A stretch of 64,000 nucleotides of DNA from Pseudanabaena sp. 'Roaring Creek' (GTDB taxonomy: Bacteria; Cyanobacteriota; Cyanobacteriia; Pseudanabaenales; Pseudanabaenaceae). Below, piece by piece: positions 11,144 through 58,906 of this stretch. Position numbers and translations under genes: made by a program. Positions within the stretch are counted from its first letter, which is position 1. Each line of letters opens with the position of its first letter. The stretch is from the NCBI RefSeq assembly GCF_001402795.1, contig NZ_LIRE01000676.1:1-64000 (forward strand), given 5' to 3'. Below the pieces are notes generated by a model that ran no database searches, was not told where the DNA came from, and saw only the letters and a list, made by a program, of their open reading frames with translations.

Positions 11144-11300
11144 ATCTAAGCTTTTTGGACTAATCATTTTTTTAGTTACGGAAACTGGAAACAAAATTAC
11201 ATAGCTTTTTGTAGCGATGGGAGAGGGGCGATCACTAGAAGCTAACTTTCGAGTTGAGACTCTTTAGCTGATTGCGCTAACTCATTGATTGATACTCCAT

Positions 11301-11511: not shown

Positions 11512-11553
11512 CTTTGATATAGATAACACAAAACTAAACAATGGCGAGATTAA

Positions 11554-12879: not shown

Positions 12880-12919
12880 TCAAGGTGGTTAAACTTTAAG
12901 TGACATTGCGATCGCAAAT

Positions 12920-12936
12920 GGGTTCGGGGTTGAGGG
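12920..12936 (+). repeat. Dispersed 17-bp element, copy 3 (exact)
   Basis: Exact copy between tnpB and the next minus-strand gene, with HIP1-type GCGATCGC sequences close on both sides. Confidence 0.85.
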
Positions 12937-21455: not shown

Positions 21456-21462
21456 CTCGGAT

Positions 21463-21479
21463 GGGTTCGGGGTTGAGGG
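21463..21479 (+). repeat. Dispersed 17-bp element, copy 6 (exact)
   Basis: Exact copy in the 31-base gap between the gpG-like gene and the inverted regulator/HicB/ParB cassette, that is, at the cassette junction. Confidence 0.85.
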
Positions 21480-28013: not shown

Positions 28014-28634
28014 ATGTCAACAACCAACACAGAAACTTTGAAAGATTCCCAAAAGAAAAGTTCGGTATCCCCCAGCCCCGAACCCAACGTTGAAGTTGAA
28101 CCTGAAAAAGTTGAACCTCTTTTTATAACTTGGATCTATAGACCCAGAGTGGAAGGCAATAATGCTCCAGTCTGTTTTCAGTACCCACCTAACGATGCAG
28201 AGTCTTTGAAAGTCTTAGCTCAAAGTGATTTGGCTAAGTCAAACACTGAACTTCCTATGGAAAGCAAGTTTCTTGTTGAAGGTATGAATTCGATTCCGAT
28301 TGATGTGGTGAGAGCAATCCAATCTCATCCTGCTTCGGCAAGAGCGCTAGAGTATAAAGTAGTTAATGGTTCGATCGAAATCCTTGAAATGGATCATGCC
28401 GACGTTGAAGGTGTCTCAGTCGATACAGCCGCATCAGTCCATTACACTCCAATTAAGGCGATCAAGTTAATTAATGCTTGTTATGATCTTGAAGCATTGA
28501 AGAGTTGGAAATCTCGCGAGATTGGCGTAGCGCGTAATGAGGTCCGCAAGGCAATTGATCGACGCATTACTATGATCAATGATGAGATCGCAGAACGAAT
28601 CAAGTCCCAACAGAGCAAACACCTCGAAAGTTAA
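28014..28634 (+). CDS. Hypothetical head-region protein with variant dispersed element
   Basis: Unrecognised 206-residue acidic protein. Residues 16-24 (SVSPSPEPN) are encoded by a variant of the dispersed element. After a flexible acidic N-terminus the sequence turns mixed (TWIYRPRVEGNNAPVCFQYP) and ends in a basic helix. The start is two bases after the preceding stop, so it is part of the head operon. Confidence 0.5.
   Translation: MSTTNTETLKDSQKKSSVSPSPEPNVEVEPEKVEPLFITWIYRPRVEGNNAPVCFQYPPNDAESLKVLAQSDLAKSNTELPMESKFLVEGMNSIPIDVVRAIQSHPASARALEYKVVNGSIEILEMDHADVEGVSVDTAASVHYTPIKAIKLINACYDLEALKSWKSREIGVARNEVRKAIDRRITMINDEIAERIKSQQSKHLES
28069..28085 (-). repeat. Dispersed 17-bp element, copy 7 (two mismatches, in frame)
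   Basis: Reverse copy with two changes, read as SPSPEPN. Confidence 0.6.
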
Positions 28635-29621: not shown

Positions 29622-30788
29622 ATGGGTTTAACCAATGCGATCGCTATTTTAAGAAGGCAAGATGCCAAACTAAAGGTTGAAGTCCCTGCTTCACAGCACC
29701 ATAAGGCTTATAGCTATTACAAGGAAGGTCATGAACCCTCAACCCCGAACCCATCGGGCAAAAGGAAAGGTAGGGGTGGCGCGATCGCGGCAGGTATCGG
29801 TGGCGCGATCGCTGGTGGCGCGTTGACAGCAGGAATTTTGGCAATGCGTAGGGGTAAAGCTGGTGAAGAACCTATTGAGCCAAAAGGTTCTCTAAAAGCA
29901 AACAATGATATTGATGCTGATTCTAGGGAAGTTAGCAATGGTATAAAGGGTTCTAGTAGTTCTAGATTACTGGGAGGGGAATCGCGTAAAAAGCCTTTAA
30001 TTACTCCACCTCCAATGAGTAATTCTGACAGAGTATTAGTTACTCCTGCGCCAAGAAAGAGTCTCAAAGAAATGGTTAAAGAGGGTGTTGGTGATGGTAG
30101 CCCATCTAAGCAAAATGCGGGGTTAGCAAAGCCTAAAAGCCTTAAGGATATGGTTCAAGAAGGAGTTAAAGCTCCTTCTACGTCCAAACAAAATGCTCAG
30201 ATAGTGACCGAGAAATCGGAGAATTTATTGACAAAGGGGGTTAAAGCACTCCGTAAATTCTCTAATAAAAATCACTCCGAACAAGGAGTCCAAGCGAAAC
30301 CTAAAAAAAGTTTGTCAGATATGGTAAAAGAGGGGGTTACCACTCCCTCTTTATCTAAGCAAAATGCATCTTTCTCCATCGATCCCGATGTTGGTTCTTC
30401 TGCAACCACACCTAAACGAAAAGGGCTTTTAGATAAAGGCATTGCGGCAATTCGTAAGATGACCAAAGAGGGTATAGATCGCGATCGTAAAGCTGGCGGA
30501 GCATTTGCCGAAAGGGAGGTAGATCTTAATAAGGTTGCCCATACCGCAGGGCAAAAGTCCCGAATTGCTGCCCAGAACCTAACGACATTTGCTAAAGCCT
30601 ACTCTGAAACATTTGGCAAGAAACAACCTAAAGCTGTGGATGTAAAGTCCACAGAAGTCCATGAATCTTTGCCAGAGGGTAAAACAGTGCCAAAACAATC
30701 TACATCAAAAAAACAATCTAAGAAAAAGTCTCCTACTGCGGCAGAGAAGAGGGCTATCCAAAAACAGATCGATGACATTGATAAATAA
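29622..30788 (+). CDS. Repetitive basic protein with glycine-rich hydrophobic segment
   Basis: Unrecognised 388-residue, lysine- and serine-rich protein. After residues 38-44 (PSTPNPS, encoded by the dispersed element) comes a glycine-alanine hydrophobic run GIGGAIAGGALTAGILAM near residues 55-72. Then a 22-residue motif occurs three times: KSLKEMVKEGV...SKQNA near 146, 172 and 229. The first two copies are adjacent; the third follows LLTKGVKALRKF, which is itself repeated later as LLDKGIAAIRKM. The C-terminus is basic. It may be an internal virion or ejected protein; the evidence is only its composition and neighbours. Confidence 0.5.
   Translation: MGLTNAIAILRRQDAKLKVEVPASQHHKAYSYYKEGHEPSTPNPSGKRKGRGGAIAAGIGGAIAGGALTAGILAMRRGKAGEEPIEPKGSLKANNDIDADSREVSNGIKGSSSSRLLGGESRKKPLITPPPMSNSDRVLVTPAPRKSLKEMVKEGVGDGSPSKQNAGLAKPKSLKDMVQEGVKAPSTSKQNAQIVTEKSENLLTKGVKALRKFSNKNHSEQGVQAKPKKSLSDMVKEGVTTPSLSKQNASFSIDPDVGSSATTPKRKGLLDKGIAAIRKMTKEGIDRDRKAGGAFAEREVDLNKVAHTAGQKSRIAAQNLTTFAKAYSETFGKKQPKAVDVKSTEVHESLPEGKTVPKQSTSKKQSKKKSPTAAEKRAIQKQIDDIDK
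29736..29752 (-). repeat. Dispersed 17-bp element, copy 8 (exact, in frame)
   Basis: Exact reverse copy, read as PSTPNPS in the repetitive basic protein, just before its hydrophobic segment. Confidence 0.85.
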
Positions 30789-31845: not shown

Positions 31846-34800
31846 ATGAATGCATACGAATATTCCAAACTGGCAGCAAGAAACGATGCTGCCAGAAAAT
31901 TAAAGTGTAAACCAAGTTTCAAACAAGTTGGGGCAGCTTGTAAACCTTTAAAAAACAATATAGCTTCTGAGCCTAATAACTCTTTGGGGCATAAAGCAAT
32001 CCTCCCAATGAACGTTTCAGCAGGACTCATACTGACTGCTGGGATAGGAGTTGCGAGCGCTACTATTGCTAATGACGTAAACAATGTAGTCGCAGACGTT
32101 TCCCATTTAGAGAAAACTCCTATCGGGGATAAGTTTGATAAAGTGGCAATCGCCAAAGAATATGACGAAAAATTTAAGCCGGGCGATTTAATTAGAAGCG
32201 CTTTCCCTCTTCCCGTTGGCAAAAATAAATATGCTTATCATTATGCAATTTATGCAGGGAATGGCGATGTTATCGAGTCTGCGCCAGACAAATCTGGCGG
32301 AGCAGGAATTGTAAGAAATTTTGCCCATGATTCTGACACACCTGGCTTAGCGACGACAAAATATGAGTTAGTAGATCTGCCTCCTGATGATGGGACAAGT
32401 CCTATACACTCTCGCGCTCATACTCTTGAGCTAGCTAAAAGCATGGTAGGGTTGCCCTTTAAATTTGACCTTATTGAATCAAACTGCGAAGCTTTTGCTA
32501 GAACAATTGCCTATGGAGGTACAAAAGGCGCACAGAGTGAAAAGGTTAGCAAATTTGGGCTAAAAACGGTTACTTCGGTTTTTGATGTTGTCGATCGCGT
32601 TGCTCTTGGTGGAGTATTGGGTAAAGGAATTCATTCCGACGAAATCAGGAAAACCCTTGAGGATCACAACTATGACCCTGAATTGATTAAAACTATCTTT
32701 AAAAGCAAAATAGATGAGAGACAGAAAGAAATAGCTAAAAAAAGAACTGATTCGGATACAAATCCACTCGCCGATCTAAACGATCCTAAAGAATTTACTC
32801 AGCTAGTTCAACAAGCTTCCTCTAGCTTTCAGGGTGCGGCAAAGCTGATATTTGAGAAAGAGATGTATAAGGTGTATTTGATCGCCTTATTTATGTCAGT
32901 GTCTAAGCCAAGCGCTGAAAGCTCTAGCAAAAAAGATAGTACTGTAGAGGATTTGATTGCCGAAATTCTGCGTAGATCCTCAGTCAGACTGGATACCAGA
33001 GTACTGCACTGCAAATCGGGATATAAGCAGATAGGAAATGCTTGCAAGCCTATCAGAAATACGGCTACGACACAACAATCAAATGGCAGTAATATTGCAC
33101 TCCCGTCGATCGCTAGTACTGCGATTATTCTAGGAGGATTGGCAACTGCTGGCGCAGTCGTCGGTAATGATGTATCTAAACTTAGCGATCCAGAAGAAAT
33201 TAAAAATGCGAGGGTAGTTCCTGCGAATGTAGCTCCGAGCAAAGAAATCCTTGCAGATTACGAGAAAAATTTCAAGAAAGGGGATTTAATTAAAAGGGGT
33301 TTCAAAGGACCTACTGGGCAATATAACTACCATTACGCAATTTATGCTGGTAACGGGGAAATCTTTGAGCTTGCTATGGACAAGTATCGAGGTTCAAGCG
33401 TCCAAAGGAATAAAATCGGTCGAACTACTGAAACAGAAGGACTTGAGTACCAACTCGTCAAAGACCTCCCCAAAGGGGCATTACCAAAATATTCGAGAGA
33501 TAAATCCCTCAAAATAGCAGAGTCTTTAGTTGGAGTTCCCTTTAAATTTGATGGAGTGAGTACTAATTGTGAATATTTTGCTCGATTGGTAGTTGAAGGA
33601 TCTGCAAGAAGTTCACAGATGGAATCTTTAGGTGGATTCACTAAAGTTCTTATTAAAGGATTAATTAAAACCCAGAAAAATCTTAGCGATGGGCATCCAG
33701 TTGAGGAGGTTGCCAAGATTCTTATGGACAATAATTATAATCCTGATTTAATTAAAGCTGTATTTAAAACCAGCGTAGAAAAAAGGCAGCATCAAATAAA
33801 TAATACAAAGGGCATATGGCGAGGGGATAGCCAATCCGAAAATGATATGTTTGCTAACTCAGGAATTAAGTCGCCTCAAGATTTTGTCGATTTAGTTCAA
33901 AAAACATCATCAAATTTTGATGGTGTAGCAAAACAAGCTCTAGAGCAACAAATGTATAAAGCTTATTTGATCGCCTTATTTGCTTTAACCTCACCAAAAA
34001 TATCAAAGATTAAACAAGATAGCTTTGAGATAGCTTCAGATCATCAAAAAATGGTTAGCGCAGTGCTATCAATTATCTCAAGGACTTATGGTGGAATTTC
34101 CACAATTGTTAGCTTAAATCGCAATCCTAATGGGCTTATTACAGTTTATTTCCGACCTTTATCCAATCCGCGATCGCTGATCAAGATGAAAATCGGCAAT
34201 TCAATTTCATACAAAGATATTACGGATCAAAGCGAAAATCGCAATTTCAACTCTGATGTTCGGGTTGATTCATCATATATCTCAGAGTATTTAGCCACTC
34301 AATTAAGGCTAGACAGTATCATTGGTAAGCAGCAGAAAAAATGTGTCAAAGGGACACCATGTAAAGGTGAGTGCATTCCCAGATCTAGTACCTGTGAAGT
34401 CGAACTTGAGAAAGTTATTGATATTCCTACCATTCAAAAGTTAGATCCCCCAACCCCCAACCTCGAACCCAGTAGAATTACTGCTACTGTTGAGCATGAT
34501 ATTTACGACATGATGAATATTCGAGATCTCAAGGAAGAAGCTCGAAAAAAAGGTGTTATGCGATATTCTTACATGACCCAAGACCAGTTGAAATCAGCTA
34601 TTAAAGTTCACGATTCTGACCCAAACTATCAAGAATCAATTAGAAAATCCTTGCAACATCACAAGGATTTAGCAACCCTTAAGAAGACTAAGAATACTGA
34701 AATTGGTAGGGCAATTTCAACAATCAACCCTGCGCTGGGTCGGCAATTTAATTTATTGACGGCTATTAGTAAGAAATTTCAAAATAATCCTACCGAGGCA

Positions 34801-35946
34801 CTTATTTATGCTTTGCCCGCGATCGCTGGTACTACTAAGGTGGTAATGGGGATTTTACAAAAGCAAAGGACATCAAATATCAAAGAAGCTGCTGGTGCAG
34901 CGGTAAATGATGCCGAGGACTATCGCAAAGATATTGATGAGAATAGCAATCCCGATAGCGTTAATTTCTATGTTGGTGGTTATGGTCGAGGTAGCAAAGA
35001 TTTATATAACAAAGTGGCTAACTCTCCACTTGCAAAGGATGAAGATACTGATTGGCTAAAAAAAGGAGAGAACATTCCTATTAATAGGGAAGGTGAAGAT
35101 GTACCTATTGCCCACAACCCCAGCCAAGCACTTGGTAACAATATTACCACTGGCTACAATGTTGTCATTAATAACACCATGAAACGAGGCAAAAGCAAGG
35201 AAGCAGTCGAGCTAGCTGCAAAGCTGTATGCCCAAGGTACAAAATGGCGCACTGATGAGAATGGTATCAAATCTATGCCCTCAATCCAAGTTCTTGCGGC
35301 AGAGGATGGAGGTGTTGTCGCTAGAGATGCGATCGAGATTTTGCAGCAAATGCCGAAAGACCCGACCACTAAATTTCGTGGTAAGGACATAGCCGATCGC
35401 GTCAAATTGGTTACTTTAGGTACGCCTTATTTTGGAGAGACTAAAGCAAATATTCCTGAAGTCAATTTAGTTGGCGACGGAGATCCTTGGGGTTCTTTGC
35501 CATTTAATAAAGGTTCGCAAACCCATCGTGTTACAGGAATTGGTGGTGCTAGTCAGTCTGCTTATACAAGTAGTTCTAACGGTATTGATGCTATCTTCAA
35601 AAATCTTCGATCTGGTTCTGAGAATCGCGGAGTAGTTGATGCCGATAGTGTCAAGGAAGCTGCGTCTGCTCAGAAAAAATCTGAGACCCAACAGGAAAAA
35701 GAAGCTTCCCAAGCCAATGCAGCAGCAGATAGAGCCGAAAGTGATAAAGCTAGGGCTGAGAAACAAGCCCATGTTGACAAGTTAATTCGAGATGAATTAA
35801 AAGCTCATGCTGGCAATAGTATCGAAGAATTAGAACGCTTAATTAAGGACCCAGATGCTTTTGCCAAGGCTAAGAAAAAAGTCAGCGATCGACTTAGAAA
35901 TGAGAAACAAGCTGCGGACTTTGCTAAGAGATCTGGTGTTGCTTAG
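31846..35946 (+). CDS. Tandem LRAT-like protein with a C-terminal lipase-like domain, 1,366 residues
   Basis: Residues about 18-375 and 386-715 are a duplication, 368 residues apart. Each has CK...KQ(V/I)G.(A)CKP at the start, a hydrophobic glycine-rich stretch, then an LRAT/NlpC-like core: YHYAIYAGNGDV with His132 and H496, and SNCEAFAR / TNCEYFAR with Cys214 and Cys575. The second His usual in LRAT is replaced by Glu. A four-Cys motif (from residue 833) and a SAP/Rho-N-like helix pair (IRDLKEEARKKG...LKSAI, near 890) follow. The end resembles an alpha/beta hydrolase (YVGGYGRGS, LVTLGTPYFG), but the nucleophile-elbow serine position is Glu (AEDGG). The C-terminus is coiled-coil. Thioester or acyl-transfer chemistry is inferred. 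Confidence 0.6.
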   Translation: MNAYEYSKLAARNDAARKLKCKPSFKQVGAACKPLKNNIASEPNNSLGHKAILPMNVSAGLILTAGIGVASATIANDVNNVVADVSHLEKTPIGDKFDKVAIAKEYDEKFKPGDLIRSAFPLPVGKNKYAYHYAIYAGNGDVIESAPDKSGGAGIVRNFAHDSDTPGLATTKYELVDLPPDDGTSPIHSRAHTLELAKSMVGLPFKFDLIESNCEAFARTIAYGGTKGAQSEKVSKFGLKTVTSVFDVVDRVALGGVLGKGIHSDEIRKTLEDHNYDPELIKTIFKSKIDERQKEIAKKRTDSDTNPLADLNDPKEFTQLVQQASSSFQGAAKLIFEKEMYKVYLIALFMSVSKPSAESSSKKDSTVEDLIAEILRRSSVRLDTRVLHCKSGYKQIGNACKPIRNTATTQQSNGSNIALPSIASTAIILGGLATAGAVVGNDVSKLSDPEEIKNARVVPANVAPSKEILADYEKNFKKGDLIKRGFKGPTGQYNYHYAIYAGNGEIFELAMDKYRGSSVQRNKIGRTTETEGLEYQLVKDLPKGALPKYSRDKSLKIAESLVGVPFKFDGVSTNCEYFARLVVEGSARSSQMESLGGFTKVLIKGLIKTQKNLSDGHPVEEVAKILMDNNYNPDLIKAVFKTSVEKRQHQINNTKGIWRGDSQSENDMFANSGIKSPQDFVDLVQKTSSNFDGVAKQALEQQMYKAYLIALFALTSPKISKIKQDSFEIASDHQKMVSAVLSIISRTYGGISTIVSLNRNPNGLITVYFRPLSNPRSLIKMKIGNSISYKDITDQSENRNFNSDVRVDSSYISEYLATQLRLDSIIGKQQKKCVKGTPCKGECIPRSSTCEVELEKVIDIPTIQKLDPPTPNLEPSRITATVEHDIYDMMNIRDLKEEARKKGVMRYSYMTQDQLKSAIKVHDSDPNYQESIRKSLQHHKDLATLKKTKNTEIGRAISTINPALGRQFNLLTAISKKFQNNPTEALIYALPAIAGTTKVVMGILQKQRTSNIKEAAGAAVNDAEDYRKDIDENSNPDSVNFYVGGYGRGSKDLYNKVANSPLAKDEDTDWLKKGENIPINREGEDVPIAHNPSQALGNNITTGYNVVINNTMKRGKSKEAVELAAKLYAQGTKWRTDENGIKSMPSIQVLAAEDGGVVARDAIEILQQMPKDPTTKFRGKDIADRVKLVTLGTPYFGETKANIPEVNLVGDGDPWGSLPFNKGSQTHRVTGIGGASQSAYTSSSNGIDAIFKNLRSGSENRGVVDADSVKEAASAQKKSETQQEKEASQANAAADRAESDKARAEKQAHVDKLIRDELKAHAGNSIEELERLIKDPDAFAKAKKKVSDRLRNEKQAADFAKRSGVA
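34454..34470 (-). repeat. Dispersed 17-bp element, copy 9 (two mismatches, in frame)
   Basis: Reverse variant, preceded by an extra PPTP-coding tract; read as PPTPNLEPS in the LRAT protein linker. Confidence 0.55.
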
Positions 35947-35953
35947 ATATATA

Positions 35954-35970
35954 CCCCCAACCCCGAACCG
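35954..35970 (-). repeat. Dispersed 17-bp element, copy 10 (two mismatches)
   Basis: Reverse variant in the gap just after the LRAT gene, with GGCGATCGC next to it. Confidence 0.6.
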
Positions 35971-35990
35971 ATCTGGCGATCGCATCTGGT

Positions 35991-36902: not shown

Positions 36903-37103
36903 ATGAAAACCGACGAAACTTTTGAATATTGCCGTGAAATATTGGATGGGCTGATGGATCAGTGTATTGCAATTGACGATCTTCTTGAGGAATCTGAAAC
37001 TAATTCACTTCCCGAAGATACAAGAAAATCTCTAAAACGACTCAAATCCAAAACCAAAGAGCTAGCCGATCGCACCCTTCAAGAATTTTGGAGAGTTGAA
37101 TAA
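36903..37103 (+). CDS. Small helical protein (unit A), 66 residues
   Basis: Acidic-basic helical protein MKTDETFEYCREILDGLMDQ ending LADRTLQEFWRVE. It is not recognised. A frameshifted second copy lies at 37180-37380 and its C-terminal codons also survive at 11301, so the gene belongs to a repeatedly duplicated locus. It is the first gene after the divergent promoter. Confidence 0.6.
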   Translation: MKTDETFEYCREILDGLMDQCIAIDDLLEESETNSLPEDTRKSLKRLKSKTKELADRTLQEFWRVE

Positions 37104-37105
37104 TT

Positions 37106-37380
37106 TTGAAGTACAAAATTGAATATGCGATCGCTGCAATGCTCCTTAGCATAGTGCCACTGCAATGTTTTGCAAACTACGCTCATTTAAACGCCAACAA
37201 TTTCGATTATATCCGCAAGATGTTGGGTGGACTTATCGATCAGTCCATGTCATTTAACGATCTTCTATATAGCCCTAAATCTACTGCGTTTCCAGATAGT
37301 GTTCAGAAAATCGCTAAATCGACTCAAATCTAGAATCAAAGAATTAGCCGATCGCACACTTGAAGAATTTGGATCTGAAT
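37106..37380 (+). pseudogene. Fused and frameshifted duplicate of units B and A
   Basis: The start MKYKIEYAIAAMLLSIVPLQ resembles the beginning of the 97-residue gene at 37416 (unit B). After a short segment it continues with a unit A copy (FDYIRKMLGGLIDQSMSFND) that breaks frame near 37305, the rest being in the next frame as SLNRLKSRIKELADRTLEEF. The first frame stops at 37333. It is therefore a decaying tandem duplicate. Confidence 0.6.
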
Positions 37381-37415
37381 GTTCGGAAACATATAAAATT
37401 AAAAGGAGAATAGCT

Positions 37416-37709
37416 ATGGAAACCTATATTGAATCAGCGATCGCGGTAATGCTCCCAAAAATCACAGTTCCATCTGGACTGTCTTTAGAAGAAGAATTTG
37501 CTTTGTTCCGTAACAGGGCTAAACCTTTCCAAGTAGAGTTAGTCGATGACGTTCTATTTGTATATCTAACCTACCAAGGTTTGGCTTGGATTCTATGCGA
37601 TCGCCTTATTGCTAATGGTGATTGTCTACTTCATTATTGCGATCGGGTTTTTGTGGTTTTTGGCGATCGGGAACCTGTTCAAATTTGGCTCAACATCAAT
37701 GCCATTTAA
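37416..37709 (+). CDS. Hypothetical protein (unit B), 97 residues
   Basis: The ATG at 37416 follows AAAAGGAGAATAGCT and was preferred over the longer frame, which reads through unit A's damaged copy. The product, METYIESAIAVMLPKITVPS then VELVDDVLFVYLTYQGLAWI and QIWLNINAI at its end, has no known motif. Its 3' part is also found, decayed, next to tnpB at 11324. It precedes the homing endonuclease gene by 53 bases. Confidence 0.6.
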   Translation: METYIESAIAVMLPKITVPSGLSLEEEFALFRNRAKPFQVELVDDVLFVYLTYQGLAWILCDRLIANGDCLLHYCDRVFVVFGDREPVQIWLNINAI

Positions 37710-37762
37710 CTTTTTGGCTGTGCGATCGCGTACAGCTTCCAAATTCTTTAAAGGAGAATATT

Positions 37763-38965
37763 TTGTCTGACATATTAAATCCATTAGAATATTTGCAATC
37801 GCTTCCAAAGTATCCTTTGTTTGCGATTAAGAATAATCATTGCCTGAATCTAAATAATTGTGGAGTATATGCGATTTTTGTCGAACCAAATAACAAAATA
37901 TATATAGGTAGTACGGGAGTTTCTTTCAATAAAAGGCTTAATAGTCACAAGTATCGCCTAAGAAGAAAGATGCATCATACAATTGGATTACAGCATTCAT
38001 TTAATAAATATGGACTTGATTCTTTATTTATATCTATTGTTGAGATTGTAAATAATCAAGATTATTCAAATATTGAGTCTTTCAAGGATGGATTACTTGG
38101 AGTTGAGCAATATTGGATCGACCTAATCCCAAGCAATTTAAGCCTGAACTGTTGTCTGATCGCTGGTTCATCCCTTGGCAGACCTGTTAGAGAAGAAGAC
38201 AAGGTTGTATTATCATTGCTAGCTAAAGAAAGGATGAGAGCAAATCCCCATTTAATAGAGAAAATGGTTGCGGGAACAAAAGCATGGGCTTCTGTTGAAG
38301 AAAATAGAATAGCACTTTCCGAAAGATGTAAAAAATATATGCATTCACCCGAAGCCACAGAACGGAGAAAGGTTTCTTTGCGTTCTGAAAAAACAAAATC
38401 ATTGCAATCTTTGACCACGAAGAAAATGTGGCAAAGACCTAATTATCGTGAGAATATATCCAAAAAAGTCAAGGAATTCTACTCTAGCTCGGTAGGAAAG
38501 GAGATGCAAAGTGCAAAAGGAAAAAAATGGGCATCTATACAAGAGAATAAAGACAGAAATTCCATAAAAATTAAAAAGAGGTTTGAAGATCCTGAATATA
38601 GAAGAAGGAACAAAGAGCATCTAACCAATATGAATCGGAAGAATGCTTATAAAACAAGCGAAAGGAGTAAGGCATTATGGGCGGATGAAGATCACAAAAA
38701 ATTACGCTCTCTCAAAATTCAAAGAGGAAAGGCTAAGAAATCTTTGCCTTTTTGCCTGTACTCACCTAATGGGGAAATTTATGTCACTGATAGCATTACT
38801 GCATTTGCAAAACAGTTTAGTCTTAGTCAGTCCTCTTTGGGTGCTATTGTTCGGGGAGTAAGTAAGTCCCACAAACTTTGGACTGGGACGACCCTTGACT
38901 CATGGAAAAATGTACCTATAGAAGCTATTCGGATACTTTGGGCAGAGCATGATGATCTCCCTTAG
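37763..38965 (+). CDS. GIY-YIG homing endonuclease with NUMOD-type repeats
   Basis: The TTG at 37763 was chosen for the AAAGGAG just upstream. The GIY-YIG domain starts with CGVYAIFVEPNNKIYIGSTG near residue 37, with a conserved Arg and Glu later (LGVEQYWIDLI). The middle has repeated basic motifs (ERRKVSLRSEKTKS, RRRNKEHLTNMNRKN) typical of NUMOD3-type DNA-binding segments. The C-terminus (FCLYSPNGEIYVTDSITAFA then SLSQSSLGAIVRG) is an IENR-type HTH. It appears intact at 400 residues. It has no intron or intein around it, so it is free-standing. Confidence 0.8.
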   Translation: MSDILNPLEYLQSLPKYPLFAIKNNHCLNLNNCGVYAIFVEPNNKIYIGSTGVSFNKRLNSHKYRLRRKMHHTIGLQHSFNKYGLDSLFISIVEIVNNQDYSNIESFKDGLLGVEQYWIDLIPSNLSLNCCLIAGSSLGRPVREEDKVVLSLLAKERMRANPHLIEKMVAGTKAWASVEENRIALSERCKKYMHSPEATERRKVSLRSEKTKSLQSLTTKKMWQRPNYRENISKKVKEFYSSSVGKEMQSAKGKKWASIQENKDRNSIKIKKRFEDPEYRRRNKEHLTNMNRKNAYKTSERSKALWADEDHKKLRSLKIQRGKAKKSLPFCLYSPNGEIYVTDSITAFAKQFSLSQSSLGAIVRGVSKSHKLWTGTTLDSWKNVPIEAIRILWAEHDDLP

Positions 38966-39337: not shown

Positions 39338-39421
39338 AGTATTTCGCTAAATCAGCCTAATTTAATGGCAGTGGCAATGACAGACCGATCATATCGCTAA
39401 ATAGTGATCGCGAAAATCAAA

Positions 39422-42400
39422 ATGTCAGCAACTTCCTCCAATGCCCTTGAGATATTAATTACGGCTAGAGATGATGCTAGTAAACAACTATCCGTAATTT
39501 CAAATGGGATAGGAGATGTTGGGAAACAGTCGATTTTGGCTACAACTGGAATAACCAATTTTGGGGCTAGCCTTGTTAAAGCCGCAGATGGAACTGTAGC
39601 AACAAAGCTTCAACAGATTTCTGGCGCAATTATTGATATAGGGCAGAAATCTCCATCCGCATTATTGGCGACAGCTACTGGATTCATTTCTGTTGTTGGC
39701 GCAATTCAAAATAGTAGTATTGCGATCGCAGCATTTCAAGGAGTAATCGTATCTTTAGAGTCTGGATTGATTGATGCAAAAGCGTCTTTAGTAGATATAA
39801 AGGACAGCTTGATCGATGTTGGGAAAGTATTTGGTGGATTAGATTTACAAAGTAGTGCAACCAAAAATCTTGTAACTACGATCAAAGCAATTGAAGAAGT
39901 TGCTACAAACCCCACGATTATTAAAGCATCCGAGGTAATCAAAGGCTTTTTAAATGACTTAAGTTTTAATGCTGGGCAAAATACTGGCAAAGCATTCCAG
40001 ACCCTTTTTAACTTATTTGATGAGATCTCGGCAACAGCAAAAGCTACTGCCGAAAAAGTCCAATCATTTTTCGCAGGTATCACATTCTTTGAAGATGCAA
40101 AAAATTCTATTAGCGAACAACTAGGGAATATTGACCTAACAAAACTAAAAGACCAGATTGACTCAACTTTCAGTAATGCAAAATCATTTCTGGATGAGCA
40201 ATTAGAGAAGGTTGACTTCTCGGCATTCAAAGATCGATTTGATTCCACTATCGAAGACGTTGGTGTTTTCCTTAAAGAGCAATTAGGGAAAGTAGACGGT
40301 TCGGGGTTGAGGGGCAATTTTGAGAGTGCGATCGCGACTATTGGTTCGTATCTGAACGATCAATTAGGCAAAGTAGACCTAACAGGGCTTAAAGAAAGCG
40401 CTGAGGAGGCATTTAATACAGCCACAGTATTCTTTGATGAACAACTTAGTAAAATTGACTTAACTGGGTTAAAAGAAAGCGCTGAAGGAGCGTTCAGTTC
40501 TGCAAAAGCTTTTCTGGATGAACAACTATCCGAAGTGGATTTTACTGGACTAAAACAAGGATTTGAGTCAGTATTAGCATCGGTTCAAAGTAGTGCGAAT
40601 AGCAAATCGATAGCCAGTGTATTTGAACAGGTATCTCCACAGCTACAGAAAATAGCTAGTAATATTTCAACTACTTTAGGTCCAGCGATTGCTCCTGTTT
40701 TTGAAGGAATCAACAAAGGGTTATCTGAAGCATCCGGTGAAGTAGCAAAATTTCTTTCAAATAGTGGAGTTCTCACAACAACAGAAGTAACTAAAATTCA
40801 ATCCGAGCTTAAAAATTTAGGATCGAACACGATAGAGGTATTCGACCAAATCTTTTCTAGATTCTTTCAGGGAGTTGGGACAGAAGCAAAAACCAATCTA
40901 AAGGTCGTAGAAACAGAAGTTACAGCAGTCCTTGAAACAAGTTTAGGGCAAAAGTTTGCTAAAGCGGGTATCGATTATGGTCAAAAGTTAGCATCTGGGA
41001 TAGAGAGTGCAGTCAATGGAGGGCTAAAAGGAGTTGATGCAATTCTAAATGCCGTTGAAAAAAGGGCAAATGCACTTAGAAATGTTCGAGAGACTTCAGG
41101 ATTTATCCAACAAGCCACCCTTACCCCAGCAAATATTCCTGGCGCAGAAGCATTCGGGAAACTTAAGGAAGAATCAACTAAATTACTTACCAGTCTGAGC
41201 AATGTCGGTCAAGAACTTTTATTCTTAACCTATGGCGTTCAGCAGTTAACAAGTGCGTTTAGCGCTCCTTTCGATATTTTTATTGGGCAAAATATTAGGC
41301 TTCAAGCCACATTATTATCAACACAAGCGCAAATCGTATCTACCAACAAAGTCTTTAAAAATGGGCTTGAGGTAACATCAGCAACCGAGGCAATTCAATC
41401 GCTCGGTGCAGTCTCAAAAAGAACTATTACTGATATTCAAGAAGGGGCATTAAAGTTAGTAGGGTTAGTCTCGACCGACCTAGTCGATCAAATTCTCCCA
41501 GCCGTAACTCAGAACTTGTCCCAATTAGGGGGTAAATTAGGCGATGTGCCAAAACTGGTTACTTCACTTGGCGCAGCACTAGGAACGCTTGGAATACCAC
41601 TTTTTGAGGCGAGAGAATCTCTTTCTCTAATTGCATCGGGAACGGTTACCGTTGAAAATCGACTTGCACGATCTTTGTCGATTACTAACCAACAAGTCAA
41701 TTTATGGAAGTCCCAAGGTAGTTTAATTGACAACCTAACAAAAAGACTACAACCATTCGTCGAGGGTAATGCATTAGCTGCTCAAACTATCGGTGGCGTA
41801 ACGTCAAACTTAAAAGAAGTTTTCCAACTCCTTACTCAACGAGCTGGGGAGACTTTCTTAGATGTTGTTGTTCAAAGATTGAATGTAGTCTATAAATTAG
41901 TCGATATTACTACTGTTGAAGGCAGAAAGAATTTTGAAGATCTTCAAGGTATTGTTGCGGGAGTTGCTAAAAATATATTTGATGGATTTGTTAAATTCGG
42001 TGATGGTGTAGCAGCTTTATTTAAAGCGATCGCGCCAGCAATCGCGGGATTTATCCAAGTTGGTGCTAAAACAATTGGCGATCTACTTAGTTTCGTTGGC
42101 GATACTCTTAAGACATTAGCCGATGGACCACTGAAATATCTATTTGCCGCATTAGGTGCGCTCAGTCAGTTTGCAGATGTGTTCACTGGCATCTTTAAGA
42201 TTGGCTTATTCCTAAAGATACGGGAGGTTATTTTAGGATTGGCTATAGGTGGCATTGGTTTGCTAATCCAAACTTTGCCGGTAGTAAGTACTTTATTTGG
42301 ATTATTTTCTCTACGGTCGAACGGGGCAGTTCTCGCCTTGACAAACTTGCGAGGAGCTTCAAATACAACTGTTGCTTCAATCTTGACATTAGGTAAAAAC

Positions 42401-45400
42401 ATAAATGTAATTCCTGGTGCTTTGCAAGCAGTATCAAAGGCAGTTCCATTCTTAGGAGCAAGTCTAAGTACTTTAATTCCTCAGTTTTCACAAATTGGCA
42501 TTGCCGCGATCGCTTTAGGAGAGAAATTCCCTTTTATTGGTGCAATATTTGAATCGCTTGATACAGCAATCCCTAAATTGATTGCTGGGTTTGCAAGACT
42601 GGCGATCGCAGCACTTGAGACAGCAGATGCATTTGTAGGTGCTGGGGGAGCTTTAGGCGTATTTGCAGAGTTTGCCACTAGCTTTAATACGGAACCAATT
42701 ATTGCTGGGCTAACTAAATTAACGACTATCACAAAATTAAGTGAAACAGGACTCAATTCATTTGGCAAATCTGTAGGAGGGCTTAGATCGACCATAATTA
42801 CATCGTTGGGATCTTTTGCTTTTAGCGCTCTATTATTTGCGGGTGCATTCCAATTGTTTGAGAAATTTCAACCTGTATTTGAAGAAATTGGGAAAGCTGC
42901 CGCAGAAGCATTTGGTCAATTAGTTTTTCTTGCAAAAGTCGTCGTAGAAGGATTGAAAAGCCCTCTTGCACTGGTAGTCACTTTAGGGACAGCCATAACT
43001 TTTCTTGCCTTTGCTATTAGCAACGATTTAATCACTGTTATCGGACGGGTAATCGCATTACAATTTGTTGGTTATCTACAGGCGATCGCGGGCGCACTTA
43101 GTTTCCTAGCAGGTGCAGAAGGCACAGCCAAGGTAGCTGCCGCGATTGAGGCAATGTCTGTAACTGGAGTTGGATCGTTAGCCAAGCTTAAAATTGCCTT
43201 TGTAGAGCTAGTTCCCGTAATCCTAACTGCTCTAGCTCCATTGCTTTTAATTATTGCTGCGCTAGGAACAATTGCGATAAAAGCAAACGAATTCAAACAA
43301 GAAGATGAGATTAATGCAGACAATGCATCAACAGGTCAAGCCGAGCAAGCTGATAACAAAACTTTTTCTCTGTTGGGTAGATCCAAAAAGTCAAAGGCAA
43401 TTTCCGATAAGGCAGCAGGCAGTGGCGTAAAGCTATCGAAAGAACAATATGCCGACAATGCAAAGCTCCAAAAAGAGATTGAGGAACAGATTAACTCGGA
43501 AACGGTACGTAAGGCAGGATTAGAAGAAGGGCTTAATGGTATTTCCACCTCTACGGAAAGAGACAATCAAAATAAAAAAATTAAAGATGCAACTGACAAC
43601 ATCGATCGCCTTAAGAAATCCGTAGAAGGAGTAGAAACCTCCGCGAAGGATTTACCTAAATACGGATCGGCTGTCGAGCAATTTACTCGTAATGTTGACA
43701 ATGCTAAAAAATCATTAATTAATGCATCGGGCGACCCAGCAATATTTAAGCAACAAATCAATACTCTCCTAGAGGGTTCCCAACAACTTCAGGACATGGG
43801 AGCAATCACAGTAGAAGATGCTGTCAAAACCTACAAAGAGATTGCGAGTAATACCAGTGCTGATGCCGAAACCCAGATTAAGGCACAACAGGCTATCACT
43901 GCTGCATATAAATTAGAGTCTCAGAAGCGCATTGCTACCTATGATACTCAGATAGCTAAAACCTCTGCCTTGGTTGCTCAAGGGAGGATTTCAGAGTCCG
44001 AGGCGATCGCGTTAACGTCAAAAGCTAATCTTGATAAATTGAAGGAAGAAGAGGAAGCGATTTCTAAGAGCTATAAAGCCCGTGCTGAAATCATTGATAG
44101 TAATACCAAAAATGCTGTTGATAGTGCTAAGCAAGATCGATTAATTGCTGATGCTAAACTCGCCGCAGCACAAGGAGATCCAACCAAATTAGCAGATATT
44201 AAAGCTCAACAACTAAAGGGAGTAGACGACAAGAAGCAAGCTGTAGAGGATGACTTAAATAAAGCTAAGGCTGAACTGGCTAAGCTAGAAGAGAACAATG
44301 CCCTTGGTTCGCGCACTGGCGAGTCTACAGCCGCAATTGACGAAGCCCACGTAAAAGTCCAGAGATTACAGAACCAATTCGAGAAATTGGCAACATTTAG
44401 AGGGACTCTTGATTCGACGATTAAGATAGATGCTGATGTCCTTAAGGATGTAAAGGAATTACCCAGTCAAATTGAGGAGGCACAGGCTAAGCTTGCTGAA
44501 TTGAAGAAGGGTAGAGATTCCAAAAAAGCGAATTTAGATAAAGAGAACTTCTTCAGTTCCCCGCAGGACAGGAAAGTTGCAAAGGTAAAACTTAAAGAAG
44601 ATGACGATGCAGTAAATGAGCAGGAAGGAGTTGTGAATGCCCTCCAAAGTAGGTTTACCAAAGCTCAAAAAGCTACTACTCCTGACAAGGAAAATGAGAA
44701 AGCTGCCTTGAGTGAAAAGCAATCTGCGATCGATGCAGAGAACAAAGCTGTCGCCAATGGGCAGAAGGTTAAGACGGAAGCTCAACTTGCTGCCGACTCT
44801 GAACTGCAACAGAAACGTGCGGCGATCGCTCAGAAAATTGCCGAAGACCAGATAAAAATCCTTGATTCTCAGATTAAAACTGCCGGAGAAGTCCAGAAAG
44901 TAGGTGAAACGCAACGTCTAGGGGAGATCGCGAAACTGCGGAAACGTGGAGTGATCCTCGAATCTGAGGCGAAATTACAAGAGACTGGTGAGAAAAAGAA
45001 GGAAATCGATCTTGAACTATCTCTCGAACAACAGAAACTTATCAAATTCAACGAACTCGATAAAAAAGGGATTGGTGTCAGCCAAGAAGTGCGCCGAGCA
45101 TCAGTCCTCAAAATTGCCGAGTTGACAAAGCAGCAAACTGAAATCGAGCTTGCTGCGATTGATGGTTTGGTTGCCGCAATCAAGGATCGGCTTACACTTG
45201 CCGCACAACAATACGGCATTACAATTGAGAAACAGAACCTTAAACTTGAAAAGCAGAAGTTACTTTATACTGCCCTTGAGAGGACTCTTGCCAACCAAGA
45301 TCGTTTGGCTCAGTCCTCAAAAAAACTAAACGATTCTGTAGTTGCGGTACATGAATCAGATCTCAATGTTTTAACCAAAATTTATGACAAACAACAACAA

Positions 45401-46765
45401 GCCATCCGTGACGCGGGTGGTACAGGTAATTCTGCCGACAAGGAACTAGAAGAGAAGAAATTACTACTTGCAGAACAGTTGGCAAAGATTAAATTGGAAT
45501 CCTTGCTCCGACAGCAGGTGTTCGAGCGTGAATCACTAGAACGAGATATTCAAAAACGAGATCTGCTCCTAGAACGTCAAAAGCTTGAAAATCAAATCAA
45601 TATAGCTAAGAAAAAAATTGACTTAGCCACTGGTGAAGTTGGTATTAAAACGGCTGAGGAAGAGGTTAAGTTAAAACCCGAATCGGCTGAGGCAAAGCTA
45701 AAACTTGCCCGCGCAAAATTAGATCAACAAAAGAATGAGCTTGAATATGGCGGATTAGTCCAAGAGAGTGGTTTCCTCAATGAGACTGGGCGATTAAATA
45801 AAGAACAGAATGGTCAGGAGCGAGAAACCCTACAAAATAATCAATTCGCCCAACGTACAACTGCAAACGCCGAATTTGCCAGTGCATTGACCGATCCTGC
45901 ATTACAACAACAGTTATTGCAACAAATCGAGGTTCAAACTAAGCAAAGAGCTTTTGGGGTGCAGGGACAAACCCGTATTACTGGCGATCAGGCTAGGGCA
46001 TTAATCAATGCCCCTATACCCGATGTTCGTGGTGCATCCCTTTCCGACCCATCTAAGTATGGGGAGGTCTTGAAGCGATCGGAATCCAACCCTAACGGCA
46101 CGTTAACGACTGAAGCACCCAAGCCAAAGGACAATAGCTTTGCTACCTCATTTGAAGAATTACAGCAAAAATACCCTGACAAGGTCGGTAATATTGACGA
46201 CCTCAATAAAAAGTATGGTGGGAAAGACGCTACTACGTTTGAAGAACTAAATGCTAAATATAGTGGCAAGCCCGCAGATAATGCGGACCCTACAGCAAAA
46301 ATTGGATCTTCCTTCGATAGACTGAACAAACAAATTGATGAAGGCTTTACTAAAGTACTGATTGCCCCTCAGTTAAAGGTCGATGAAATGACATCAGGGC
46401 TTGAGGCTCAATTCAACAAAATCACAACCCAAATCAAGGATAATCCCATCACTATTTCCCTTGATAATTCAGCTTTAGATAAAGCCAAAGCTGAGTTAGA
46501 CAAACCTTTAAAGGTGATCGATGAGGATCAACTTAAAAGGCTTGAAGGTATCTTGGGTGCTTTAAGTCAAGGTGGCAGCAATCTCGATATTAAGACTGCT
46601 GGTGTCAATGCTGCCGGCGCAGGAACCACGACTATAAACGCCCCAATTACAGTAAACAACCCTCAAAATGGGGCTAGCAATGCCCAAGACATCCCCAAAG
46701 CAGTCAGCAATGCCCTAGACTCTGTGCTTAAAAGAGTCGCGAATATCGTAAGTTCTACGAAGTAG
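39422..46765 (+). CDS. Tape measure protein, 2,447 residues
   Basis: The ATG at 39422 was preferred over GTG at 39404 as the product then begins MSATSSNALEILITARDDAS, a common start of tape measure proteins. It is overwhelmingly helical, with hydrophobic patches around residues 900-1300 (several 15-20 residue stretches) that may be the transmembrane part, and heptad-rich Lys/Glu-rich coiled coils from about 1400 to 2100. A six-unit 27-residue repeat occupies 40115-40600. Such proteins set tail length; at about 1.5 angstrom per residue it implies a tail near 370 nm. The C-terminus is Ser/Asn-rich. Confidence 0.85.
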   Translation: MSATSSNALEILITARDDASKQLSVISNGIGDVGKQSILATTGITNFGASLVKAADGTVATKLQQISGAIIDIGQKSPSALLATATGFISVVGAIQNSSIAIAAFQGVIVSLESGLIDAKASLVDIKDSLIDVGKVFGGLDLQSSATKNLVTTIKAIEEVATNPTIIKASEVIKGFLNDLSFNAGQNTGKAFQTLFNLFDEISATAKATAEKVQSFFAGITFFEDAKNSISEQLGNIDLTKLKDQIDSTFSNAKSFLDEQLEKVDFSAFKDRFDSTIEDVGVFLKEQLGKVDGSGLRGNFESAIATIGSYLNDQLGKVDLTGLKESAEEAFNTATVFFDEQLSKIDLTGLKESAEGAFSSAKAFLDEQLSEVDFTGLKQGFESVLASVQSSANSKSIASVFEQVSPQLQKIASNISTTLGPAIAPVFEGINKGLSEASGEVAKFLSNSGVLTTTEVTKIQSELKNLGSNTIEVFDQIFSRFFQGVGTEAKTNLKVVETEVTAVLETSLGQKFAKAGIDYGQKLASGIESAVNGGLKGVDAILNAVEKRANALRNVRETSGFIQQATLTPANIPGAEAFGKLKEESTKLLTSLSNVGQELLFLTYGVQQLTSAFSAPFDIFIGQNIRLQATLLSTQAQIVSTNKVFKNGLEVTSATEAIQSLGAVSKRTITDIQEGALKLVGLVSTDLVDQILPAVTQNLSQLGGKLGDVPKLVTSLGAALGTLGIPLFEARESLSLIASGTVTVENRLARSLSITNQQVNLWKSQGSLIDNLTKRLQPFVEGNALAAQTIGGVTSNLKEVFQLLTQRAGETFLDVVVQRLNVVYKLVDITTVEGRKNFEDLQGIVAGVAKNIFDGFVKFGDGVAALFKAIAPAIAGFIQVGAKTIGDLLSFVGDTLKTLADGPLKYLFAALGALSQFADVFTGIFKIGLFLKIREVILGLAIGGIGLLIQTLPVVSTLFGLFSLRSNGAVLALTNLRGASNTTVASILTLGKNINVIPGALQAVSKAVPFLGASLSTLIPQFSQIGIAAIALGEKFPFIGAIFESLDTAIPKLIAGFARLAIAALETADAFVGAGGALGVFAEFATSFNTEPIIAGLTKLTTITKLSETGLNSFGKSVGGLRSTIITSLGSFAFSALLFAGAFQLFEKFQPVFEEIGKAAAEAFGQLVFLAKVVVEGLKSPLALVVTLGTAITFLAFAISNDLITVIGRVIALQFVGYLQAIAGALSFLAGAEGTAKVAAAIEAMSVTGVGSLAKLKIAFVELVPVILTALAPLLLIIAALGTIAIKANEFKQEDEINADNASTGQAEQADNKTFSLLGRSKKSKAISDKAAGSGVKLSKEQYADNAKLQKEIEEQINSETVRKAGLEEGLNGISTSTERDNQNKKIKDATDNIDRLKKSVEGVETSAKDLPKYGSAVEQFTRNVDNAKKSLINASGDPAIFKQQINTLLEGSQQLQDMGAITVEDAVKTYKEIASNTSADAETQIKAQQAITAAYKLESQKRIATYDTQIAKTSALVAQGRISESEAIALTSKANLDKLKEEEEAISKSYKARAEIIDSNTKNAVDSAKQDRLIADAKLAAAQGDPTKLADIKAQQLKGVDDKKQAVEDDLNKAKAELAKLEENNALGSRTGESTAAIDEAHVKVQRLQNQFEKLATFRGTLDSTIKIDADVLKDVKELPSQIEEAQAKLAELKKGRDSKKANLDKENFFSSPQDRKVAKVKLKEDDDAVNEQEGVVNALQSRFTKAQKATTPDKENEKAALSEKQSAIDAENKAVANGQKVKTEAQLAADSELQQKRAAIAQKIAEDQIKILDSQIKTAGEVQKVGETQRLGEIAKLRKRGVILESEAKLQETGEKKKEIDLELSLEQQKLIKFNELDKKGIGVSQEVRRASVLKIAELTKQQTEIELAAIDGLVAAIKDRLTLAAQQYGITIEKQNLKLEKQKLLYTALERTLANQDRLAQSSKKLNDSVVAVHESDLNVLTKIYDKQQQAIRDAGGTGNSADKELEEKKLLLAEQLAKIKLESLLRQQVFERESLERDIQKRDLLLERQKLENQINIAKKKIDLATGEVGIKTAEEEVKLKPESAEAKLKLARAKLDQQKNELEYGGLVQESGFLNETGRLNKEQNGQERETLQNNQFAQRTTANAEFASALTDPALQQQLLQQIEVQTKQRAFGVQGQTRITGDQARALINAPIPDVRGASLSDPSKYGEVLKRSESNPNGTLTTEAPKPKDNSFATSFEELQQKYPDKVGNIDDLNKKYGGKDATTFEELNAKYSGKPADNADPTAKIGSSFDRLNKQIDEGFTKVLIAPQLKVDEMTSGLEAQFNKITTQIKDNPITISLDNSALDKAKAELDKPLKVIDEDQLKRLEGILGALSQGGSNLDIKTAGVNAAGAGTTTINAPITVNNPQNGASNAQDIPKAVSNALDSVLKRVANIVSSTK
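40115..40600 (+). repeat. Six 81-bp units encoding EQLxxxD repeats in the tape measure
   Basis: Six in-frame units of 27 codons, each starting (E/D)QL..(V/I)D and with a phenylalanine-rich end. In unit 3 the residues GSGLRG come from the dispersed 17-bp element but the unit is still 27 codons. Confidence 0.75.
40297..40313 (+). repeat. Dispersed 17-bp element, copy 11 (one mismatch, in frame)
   Basis: Forward copy with the first G replaced by C; read as GSGLRG in the tape measure repeat. Confidence 0.75.
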
Positions 46766-46767
46766 GG

Positions 46768-46784
46768 GGGTTCGGGGTTGAGGG
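46768..46784 (+). repeat. Dispersed 17-bp element, copy 12 (exact)
   Basis: Exact copy starting three bases after the tape measure stop. Confidence 0.85.
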
Positions 46785-47498: not shown

Positions 47499-47602
47499 TG
47501 AGCCTCAGTATAGGTTTCATTGGTTAGAATCTAATGGGATCTAGTAACAAGCGATCGCTTAGTAAATAAATACTATCTCACAAATCCAACAAAATAACGA
47601 AT

Positions 47603-47619
47603 GGGTTCGGGGTTGAGGG
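47603..47619 (+). repeat. Dispersed 17-bp element, copy 13 (exact)
   Basis: Exact copy in the gap upstream of the coiled-coil paralogue's 3' end, followed by TACATAAAA. Confidence 0.85.
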
Positions 47620-51482: not shown

Positions 51483-52333
51483 TGTTCCAACTTTTGTCTG
51501 CCGATTTACCTACCACACCGCAGAAAGCTCCTGCTCAGACCTCAACACCATTCATGCGGCTATGGAATGGGAATGGCGCATCTAGGTCGATGGCTCCCAT
51601 TGCGATCGCAGATTACCTAAAGATGTATGCAAATAGTGTAGGTTTAGAGCCAATAGTCTTTCATGGCATTACCCCTTCAAGGACAGGAATCTACTATACC
51701 TACACTTTGCCCCTTGCTGCCTATCAAGTATATATGCAGGGCTTTAAGCAAATCACAGATCCAAGATCTGCCCCCCCTAATTCCTTCTGGCTGAATGGAC
51801 AGATCGTAAATATAATTAAGACGACACCAGCTACAGAGGTAAATTTAGATGCTGTACTAAGCGCAACTGCGGCATCTACTCCAATCGCAAATCAATATCA
51901 AGTCAATACTTCATCATGGGGAACATTTACCGTTCCTACCAACATATTTGTTGATGGCATTGAGTTGACCCAATCTGACACCAATTCGCCAGGAACGTTT
52001 CAGGTGCTTAGCAATGCAATTAACATTTATACCTCAGCCCCATTACCAGTAGGTAGTGTGGTAGTTCATATAAATCAAAATGTACCCCCAACCCCGAACT
52101 CAGTCGTTGCTACTTACGACCTTCCTTCCTTCGCTCATGTTGCGGACTTGGCTGGGCGATCGTACTTTCGGGCATCCAACTACTTATCCCCTAATGAGTA
52201 CGATTTTGTGAGCGATGACACACAAAGTATAAGCCTGTTCGCACCATTGGCTATGTTCACTGGTCTTGAGGTCTTTACTAAAATGGATGTTCTTAATGCG
52301 ATCGCTAAAGATGTGACAAGTATATCTTTTTAA
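51482..52333 (+). CDS. Hypothetical tail-region protein, 283 residues
   Basis: Beta-rich, Ala/Thr/Ser-rich protein without recognised motifs. It has YYTYTLPLAAYQVYMQGFKQ near residue 78 and a repeated strand pattern later, including VPPTPNSVV, encoded by a variant dispersed element. It starts within the endolysin stop codon. A tail or lysis accessory role is suggested only by position. Confidence 0.5.
   Translation: MFQLLSADLPTTPQKAPAQTSTPFMRLWNGNGASRSMAPIAIADYLKMYANSVGLEPIVFHGITPSRTGIYYTYTLPLAAYQVYMQGFKQITDPRSAPPNSFWLNGQIVNIIKTTPATEVNLDAVLSATAASTPIANQYQVNTSSWGTFTVPTNIFVDGIELTQSDTNSPGTFQVLSNAINIYTSAPLPVGSVVVHINQNVPPTPNSVVATYDLPSFAHVADLAGRSYFRASNYLSPNEYDFVSDDTQSISLFAPLAMFTGLEVFTKMDVLNAIAKDVTSISF
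52085..52101 (-). repeat. Dispersed 17-bp element, copy 14 (two mismatches, in frame)
   Basis: Reverse variant, read as PPTPNS. Confidence 0.6.
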
Positions 52334-58851: not shown

Positions 58852-58889
58852 TGGTTCTCCCTTTTTTAATTCGTGATCGCCCCTCGACT

Positions 58890-58906
58890 GGGTTCGGGGT
58901 TGAGGG
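58890..58906 (+). repeat. Dispersed 17-bp element, copy 16 (exact)
   Basis: Exact forward copy flanked by GATCGCCCCT and GGACGATCGC; it forms an inverted pair with copy 17. Confidence 0.85.

Follow-up and report, generated by a model that had tools for sequence, protein, structure and literature searches.

The window, that is, the whole stretch of 64,000 nucleotides analysed here, is part of contig C82 (66.6 kb) in a 5.48-Mb genome of 770 contigs, which its relatives and its HIP1 content mark as probably cyanobacterial. Within it, a head maturation protease, a major head protein, and an endolysin were matched by PHROGs. The gene of interest lies at 39404-46765 on the forward strand and, according to a mechanical open reading frame call, encodes a protein of 2453 amino acids from a GTG start. 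In tblastn searches its product aligned with proteins annotated as tape measures in 12 phage records, among them Aphanizomenon phage CL131, PaV-LD, and nine Nodularia phage records, and it is therefore tape-measure-like by homology. The best match, in CL131, covers 55% of the query at 28.7% identity (E 4e-53), and neither Pfam nor PHROGs returned a match for the product. The gene probably sets tail length.

The window shares a short dispersed motif with other contigs of the genome. The motif-bearing contigs C82, C206, C301, C638, and C660 amount to 121 kb together. Since four of the five have exact end overlaps of 92-159 bp, they probably belong to one replicon, either a cyanophage or a phage-plasmid; C638 was assigned to it by motif and content alone. 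Gene calls in these contigs, as well as in the plasmid and phages compared below (pLBA, A-1, and N-1), come from a crude codon scorer.

Near the start of the tape-measure-like gene, six 27-codon units of 81 nt each lie side by side at 40115-40600 (forward strand), and their alignment holds no indel, exactly as the first-pass annotation had described. The strongest self-match of the protein is by far that at lag 27 (score 156), followed by its multiples (108, 81, and 54). In order, the units read EQLGNIDLTKLKDQ.., EQLEKVDFSAFKDR.., EQLGKVDGSGLRGN.., DQLGKVDLTGLKES.., EQLSKIDLTGLKES.., and EQLSEVDFTGLKQG.. from their beginnings. Unit 3 (EQLGKVDGSGLRGNFESAIATIGSYLN, 40277-40357, forward strand) stands out by an exact copy of the 16-mer GGTTCGGGGTTGAGGG at 40298-40313 (forward strand). 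Together with the next two bases, this 16-mer makes up six codons (40298-40315) that encode GSGLRG, so the earlier attribution of these residues to the dispersed element holds to the letter. At the same place the other five units read LTKLKD, FSAFKD, LTGLKE, LTGLKE, and FTGLKQ. Both flanks of the patch still align without gaps to the other units (KVD before; NFES versus GFES/RFDS after), and where the motif family has a 5' ATG the unit has a GAC codon of its own, which makes the tape measure copy a 16-mer and not a 19-mer. Unit 3 also holds a second dispersed motif that fits the 27 codons, namely the HIP1 octamer GCGATCGC at 40328-40335.

The motif is both abundant and confined. Exact copies of the 16-mer number 11 in the window and 19 in the genome, all 19 on the five contigs, and when up to two mismatches are allowed, 32 of the 33 genome sites are found there. 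We define the family as the 31 sites that match the 17-mer with at most two mismatches in the 121 kb. At zero, one, two, three, and four mismatches, these 121 kb hold 17, 8, 6, 3, and 0 sites of the 17-mer, compared with 0, 0, 0, 0.2, and 1.2 in simulated sequence; likewise, the 19-mer with up to three mismatches was found 16 times in the window versus an expected 0 in the shuffled window. Over the 31 sites, conservation is limited to positions -3 to +16, with a weak signal to +21. The motif is asymmetric, lacks dyad symmetry, and has flanks that hardly pair (T-1/A+20 in 20 sites, A-2/T+21 in 13). It corresponds to about 2.4 heptamers with three G runs (GGGTTCG GGGTTGA GGG), and in 30 of the 31 sites neither its length nor the order in which the two unlike heptamers follow each other varies.

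As for their placement, the sites favour intergenic gaps, since only 15 of the 31 are genic where coding sequence makes up 74% (p 0.003), and on C82 they are spaced more evenly than expected at random (P 0.02). Twelve sites run opposite to the gene in which they lie, three are on the same strand, and 16 are intergenic. Within genes, most opposite-strand copies encode PSTPNP or NPEP, using two frames, and coding constraint could be the cause of this orientation bias in the in-gene subset. Reading frame and strand vary among the in-gene copies, so that it is the DNA that is conserved and not the peptide. The tape measure copy is the clearest sense-strand case, unlike most in-gene copies, which counts against the reading that we favour below.

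Besides the one in unit 3, the window has the following copies. On the forward strand, an intergenic copy at 1173-1191 lies upstream of a HAD-type phosphatase gene; the copy at 5320-5338 reads MGSGLR in an open reading frame of uncertain start; those at 12918-12936 (about 40 nt past a TnpB-like gene) and 21461-21479 (in a 31-nt gap) lie between convergent genes; another at 46766-46784 follows immediately after the stop of the tape-measure-like gene; and those at 47601-47619 and 58888-58906 are intergenic, while a variant at 56268-56286 lies at the 3' end of the opposite-strand gene 56264-57400. On the reverse strand, the copies at 20111-20129 and 20153-20171 lie within gene 17834-20308, where the first encodes PSTPNP and the second, 42 nt from it, lies in a local duplication; variants within genes 28014-28634 (28069-28087) and 51590-52333, a called gene (52085-52103), encode SPSPEP and PPTPN, respectively; the copy at 29736-29754 within gene 29622-30788 again encodes PSTPNP; and one more variant lies between convergent genes at 35954-35972. 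The reverse-strand variant at 34447-34472, within gene 31846-35946, alone has one heptamer more than the rest, a hint of occasional slippage.

Only one partial relative of this phage was recovered from viral contigs with the major head protein and terminase as queries, namely L037 (IMGVR_UViG_3300015198_000201, IMG/VR, 8.5 kb), which carries a portal, a terminase, and a TnpB-like gene. Its proteins are 53% (terminase), 58% (phosphatase-like gene), and 65% (uncharacterised gene) identical to those of this phage. L037 holds two exact motif copies, both in or near genes that are 58-65% identical and both orthologous to sites here: the first, at 2003-2021, corresponds to the copy at 1173-1191, and the second, at the 5' end of the uncharacterised gene, to that at C301 24455. 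In the latter gene, five consecutive site codons are identical, compared with 69 of 210 codons elsewhere. Conservation at orthologous places means that the motif is held in place and is not merely hopping. A 'ParB-like' label given by eye to this gene was dropped, as Pfam returned no match. Single motif copies in two congeneric genomes share a similar start-codon context. Altogether, the 17-mer occurs in seven stretches of the viral contigs, six of which have single copies with unlike flanks and are probably chance occurrences, given the size of the collection.

For the tape measure protein itself, an exact-peptide scan found no relative in viral contigs or genome contigs, nor was one found in 25 other genomes of the genus. 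Distant homologues, which align mainly over the middle of the protein, occur in the 12 phage records, in three plasmid records (one match being weak and without tape measure annotation), and in 10 of the 290 other genomes of the class that were searched. No comparable lag-27 array is present in the homologues of CL131, PaV-LD, Leptolyngbya boryana plasmid pLBA, or Nodularia kac68, or at the N-termini of four tape measure proteins from the class genomes; with the array as query, one weak match was obtained (24% identity, E 1.8e-5), and phages gave no convincing one (best E 0.05). In one of the four class-genome proteins (L066, G253:C245:10000-22000), a repeat at lag 27 (score 100) lies close to the C-terminus, placed unlike the array here. 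The in-gene copies were also used as a test for insertion, in which 13 genes set against 32 relative loci yielded a single spanning alignment, to CL131 at 25.7% identity, too poor to be of use.

The array itself offers the closest comparison. Only about half of the bases agree between its units. The units other than unit 3 are 8, 8, 9, 10, and 12 mismatches away from the 16-mer; as near to the 16-mer as the closest units are 129 of 7347 positions in the gene, the site itself excluded. By itself, the 18-nt patch does not stand out in divergence, ranking 63 of 384 18-nt windows in the array, with column agreements of 0.52-0.64 among the other five units and 0.38 for unit 3. An exact match to the family thus identifies the patch, and because the array is already diverged, the amount of change does not tell how it arose. 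At the protein level, GSGLRG and LTGLKE score +7 in BLOSUM62, within the top 2.3% of hexapeptides in the tape measure protein, with G and L kept, S for T, and R for K, as if the tolerance of the protein had steered where a site could form. The first-pass annotation had suggested selection for a sequence that already fitted; this fails at the DNA level, where the nearest units differ by eight mismatches, and finds weak support at the protein level. In an AlphaFold model made without an alignment, the patch corresponds to residues 132-137 of the modelled piece, of which 128-134 are unassigned and the next helix runs from 135. Since the pLDDT is 47.7, this is only a hint that the patch may sit at a break or turn between two helices.

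We consider it fairly probable that the motif represents an asymmetric site private to the phage, some 16-19 bp long, present at about 31 places in the 121-kb genome and likely bound by a putative phage DNA-binding protein, and that such sites form within genes by substitution and not by mobile insertion, one of them in unit 3 without any change in length. A site recognised by this protein would arise within a gene as bases are substituted in place, either step by step or several in a small cluster, and it would persist where the encoded protein tolerates the change. In unit 3, it would have formed over six codons, turning LTGLK(E)-like residues into GSGLRG. The binding protein, its role, and selection for the tape measure copy are parts of this reading that we infer. 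Substitution without insertion in unit 3 is supported by the sequence comparison: the unit is still 81 nt long with ungapped flanks, and five sister units of equal length argue against a jumping sequence. The earlier proposal that existing codons were replaced and 27 codons kept is upheld in this respect. On the other hand, the two copy pairs that arose by local duplication (20111/20153 and C206 8059/8147) were added by lengthening and count against the substitution reading.

The nearest system in the literature concerns the Nostoc phages A-1 (L103 and L105; KU234533, 68 kb) and N-1 (L104 and L106; KU234532, 65 kb), reported to have 43 and 21 asymmetric dispersed motifs, respectively, whose orientation relative to the flanking genes varies and for which promoters or stoperators were proposed (PMC4916379). 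The family described here did not appear in the literature found on stoperators and cyanophages, on dispersed cyanophage repeats, or, among 10 of 164 papers, with the motif letters. We count 75 copies of TGACTCCGGGG and none of TGATTCCGGGG in A-1, versus 78 copies of TGATTCCGGGG and one of TGACTCCGGGG in N-1; 20 simulations of each gave 0 copies. The two motifs differ at one base (position 4) in essentially every copy, which amounts to a concerted switch. Because both phages have the same recorded host and yet differ in nearly all copies, this suggests that the motif's reader belongs to the phage and not to the host. Like the family studied here, these motifs are phage-private, asymmetric, and G-rich, occur in dozens of copies, are enriched in intergenic regions, and have no fixed orientation (within genes, 21 same versus 20 opposite in A-1 and 13 versus 18 in N-1). 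They differ from it in sequence and in their higher density, and both phages have tail sheath genes, whereas none was found in this phage among the genes scanned.

A-1 and N-1 share 58 reciprocal best pairs with a median identity of 65%, so that copies present in one phage can be compared with the orthologous sequence in the other; of the 41 A-1 copies that lie in genes, 4 are not covered by these pairs. Thirteen motif copies, which also show the switch of one base, have an identical codon position in A-1 and N-1, and three more lie within 30 nt. Among the phage-specific in-gene copies that are well aligned (local identity of at least 30%, with 15 poorly aligned ones set aside, 8 in A-1 and 7 in N-1), 15 are ungapped (9 in A-1, 6 in N-1), whereas 6 of the 21 are gapped in the site (4 and 2, respectively), which counts against the substitution reading. 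The orthologous 11-mers of the nine ungapped A-1 copies are 1, 1, 2, 2, 4, 4, 6, 6, and 10 bases from the motif, and those of the six N-1 copies 1, 4, 4, 6, 7, and 9, where the background divergence is 3.7 +/- 2.1. As the copies are mostly ungapped and near this background, copying of a block is not required. Judging from these alignments, gain or loss of an in-gene motif by ordinary substitution without a change in length appears to be usual for this class.

The strongest competitor, although we think it doubtful, is templated replacement in one step, in which short ectopic gene conversion or a polymerase template switch would have overwritten the six codons of unit 3 with 16-19 nt taken from another copy of the motif. 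The 16-mer is exact and the 121 kb hold no sites at four mismatches, GGGTTnA-like microhomology exists in sister units (unit 5, TTAACTGGGTTAAAAG), the 3' side of the copy runs on as GGGGCA like several other copies, and template switching is described as a known source of clustered substitutions. This is offset by the flank shared with a donor, common only over a few bases, and by the 8-12 changes in 16 nt that would be needed, close to the ordinary divergence of units that already differ at about 50% of positions. For that reason the gene-conversion-like copying once proposed for this patch is not needed, and the same goes for A-1 and N-1, where 5 of the 15 ungapped orthologs are one or two bases from the motif and the rest around or above background, a pattern that fits stepwise change.

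It is improbable that a mobile sequence was inserted and then offset by a deletion, or that the unit is a recombined one acquired from another phage. Some copies did multiply by local duplication, as in the two pairs mentioned above, but in unit 3 both patch flanks align ungapped to other units, convincing terminal inverted repeats are lacking (20/31 and 13/31 pairing at the best offsets), and the insertion and the deletion would have to match exactly in size. Even less probable is a host-recognised recombination hotspot (Chi-like) or another host-read signal enriched in the phage: the motif is indeed short, asymmetric, G-rich, and dense in the phage, but the host chromosome is without it (32 of 33 sites being on phage contigs), and A-1 and N-1, with the same recorded host, differ at one base in nearly every copy. 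An intramolecular quadruplex usually needs four G runs, and the motif has only three. We give the least credence to spread of a heptanucleotide STRR-type or G-quadruplex repeat by slippage, which can point to the 2.4 heptamers, the three G runs, the extra heptamer at 34447-34472, and the G-rich heptamer arrays reported from Nostoc (PMC4692102), yet is largely refuted by the fixed length in 30 of 31 sites, since slippage would vary the copy number.

Substitution in place can also be set against known repeat systems. Cluster A mycobacteriophages are reported to have 20-30 asymmetric stoperators across the genome that vary in sequence between phage lineages, are bound by a known immunity repressor that stops transcription, and lie mainly in one orientation relative to transcription (PMC6550527). 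The 31 asymmetric sites without dyad symmetry resemble these, whereas the single orientation is absent here as well as in A-1 and N-1. By analogy, our best reading is that the family is stoperator-like in function; because the orientation feature fails over all sites and binding is only predicted, we do not file it as a proven member. For the mode of spread, HIP1 would be the nearest precedent, as its spread via nucleotide substitutions is the title statement of Robinson et al. 1997 (cited in PMC4390886). HIP1, common among the genomes of cyanobacteria, is palindromic and 8 bp long, whereas the motif here is asymmetric, longer, and confined to the phage; the comparison rests on the length-neutral array and on the 15 ungapped versus 6 gapped copies of A-1 and N-1, and not on an ancestral sequence. 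STRR heptanucleotide repeats vary in their number of tandem heptamers, which is fixed here in all but one site. Inserted repeats of the MITE or REP type lengthen the sequence that receives them, while unit 3 has the length of the other five, and their terminal inverted repeats were not found in flanks with weak pairing and, apart from the weak signal to +21, no conservation beyond -3/+16.

That a length-neutral change in a tape measure protein would be tolerated, as the first-pass annotation assumed, is backed by experiments in another phage, TP901-1. Replacement of one repeat by 6 or 11 alanines reportedly had little effect on infection, whereas deletions of sub-repeats often broke plaque formation or particles (PMC5099701). 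Both proteins have repeated units, and in TP901-1 periodicity matters more than residue identity, although its repeats (about 11 residues, judged from the alanine replacement) are shorter than the 27-residue units here, and sections 6 and 7 of that paper do not mention a dispersed motif.

A private motif of this kind also occurs in the L. boryana plasmid pLBA (L081/L082), which holds 33 copies of TGTTCTGGGG in 77.8 kb, compared with a mean of 0.13 and a maximum of 5 for shuffled motifs, and these are oriented 19 opposite versus 7 same relative to genes. In another genome, 33 of the 48 copies of TGTTCTGGGG fall within one chromosomal stretch of 75 kb that holds a relative of pLBA (G215:C1:1388236-1463479). 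Across 11 sequence sets with a tape measure gene, to which A-1 and N-1 do not belong, a private motif was clear in two, namely this phage and pLBA. In CL131 (first 100 kb) and PaV-LD, the only words of this sort were HIP1-like or CRISPR-like, and candidate words that a scan without dispersion filter gave for CL131 are probably its CRISPR repeats. The candidate motif of G149 was likewise rejected, as it turned out to be two CRISPR-like arrays. These long arrays, of one repeat with 34 and 39 units (G149:C1:1105105-1107482 and 1147386-1150114), flank a tape-measure homologue at 1138455. A candidate in G253 has six exact copies within about 8 kb.

By eye, a (T/C)TC(N)GGGG look is common to GGTTCGGGG.. 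in this phage, TGTTCTGGGG in pLBA, TGACTCCGGGG in A-1, and TGATTCCGGGG in N-1. Tentatively, then, it is possible that unrelated cyanophages and phage-plasmids each carry a private, genome-wide, asymmetric family built on such a core, in which a shift in the specificity of a phage-encoded reader would rewrite all copies in concert, and that sites would be made in place in virion genes, including the tape measure gene, with protein length unchanged. The tandem array serves here as an internal ruler, by which the dispersed motif can be seen to have entered coding sequence with its length unchanged. Together with A-1 and N-1, it offers a testable case of a putative phage DNA-binding protein and dozens of sites that co-evolve, and it suggests that virion genes pay in amino acids for such sites.

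Two other kinds of repeats were observed in passing. Repeated stretches at 11298-11649 and 37043-37726 of the window and at C206 10206-10348 lie by the TnpB-like gene (11554-12879) and a GIY-YIG gene (37622-38965); those within C82 have 188 bp in common (at 88%), C82 and C206 have 143 bp in common (at 99%), and the stretches are probably remains of IS605-type elements. Further downstream, at 53285-55774, the gene for an NB-ARC/TPR protein contains about five tandem repeats of 120 bp.
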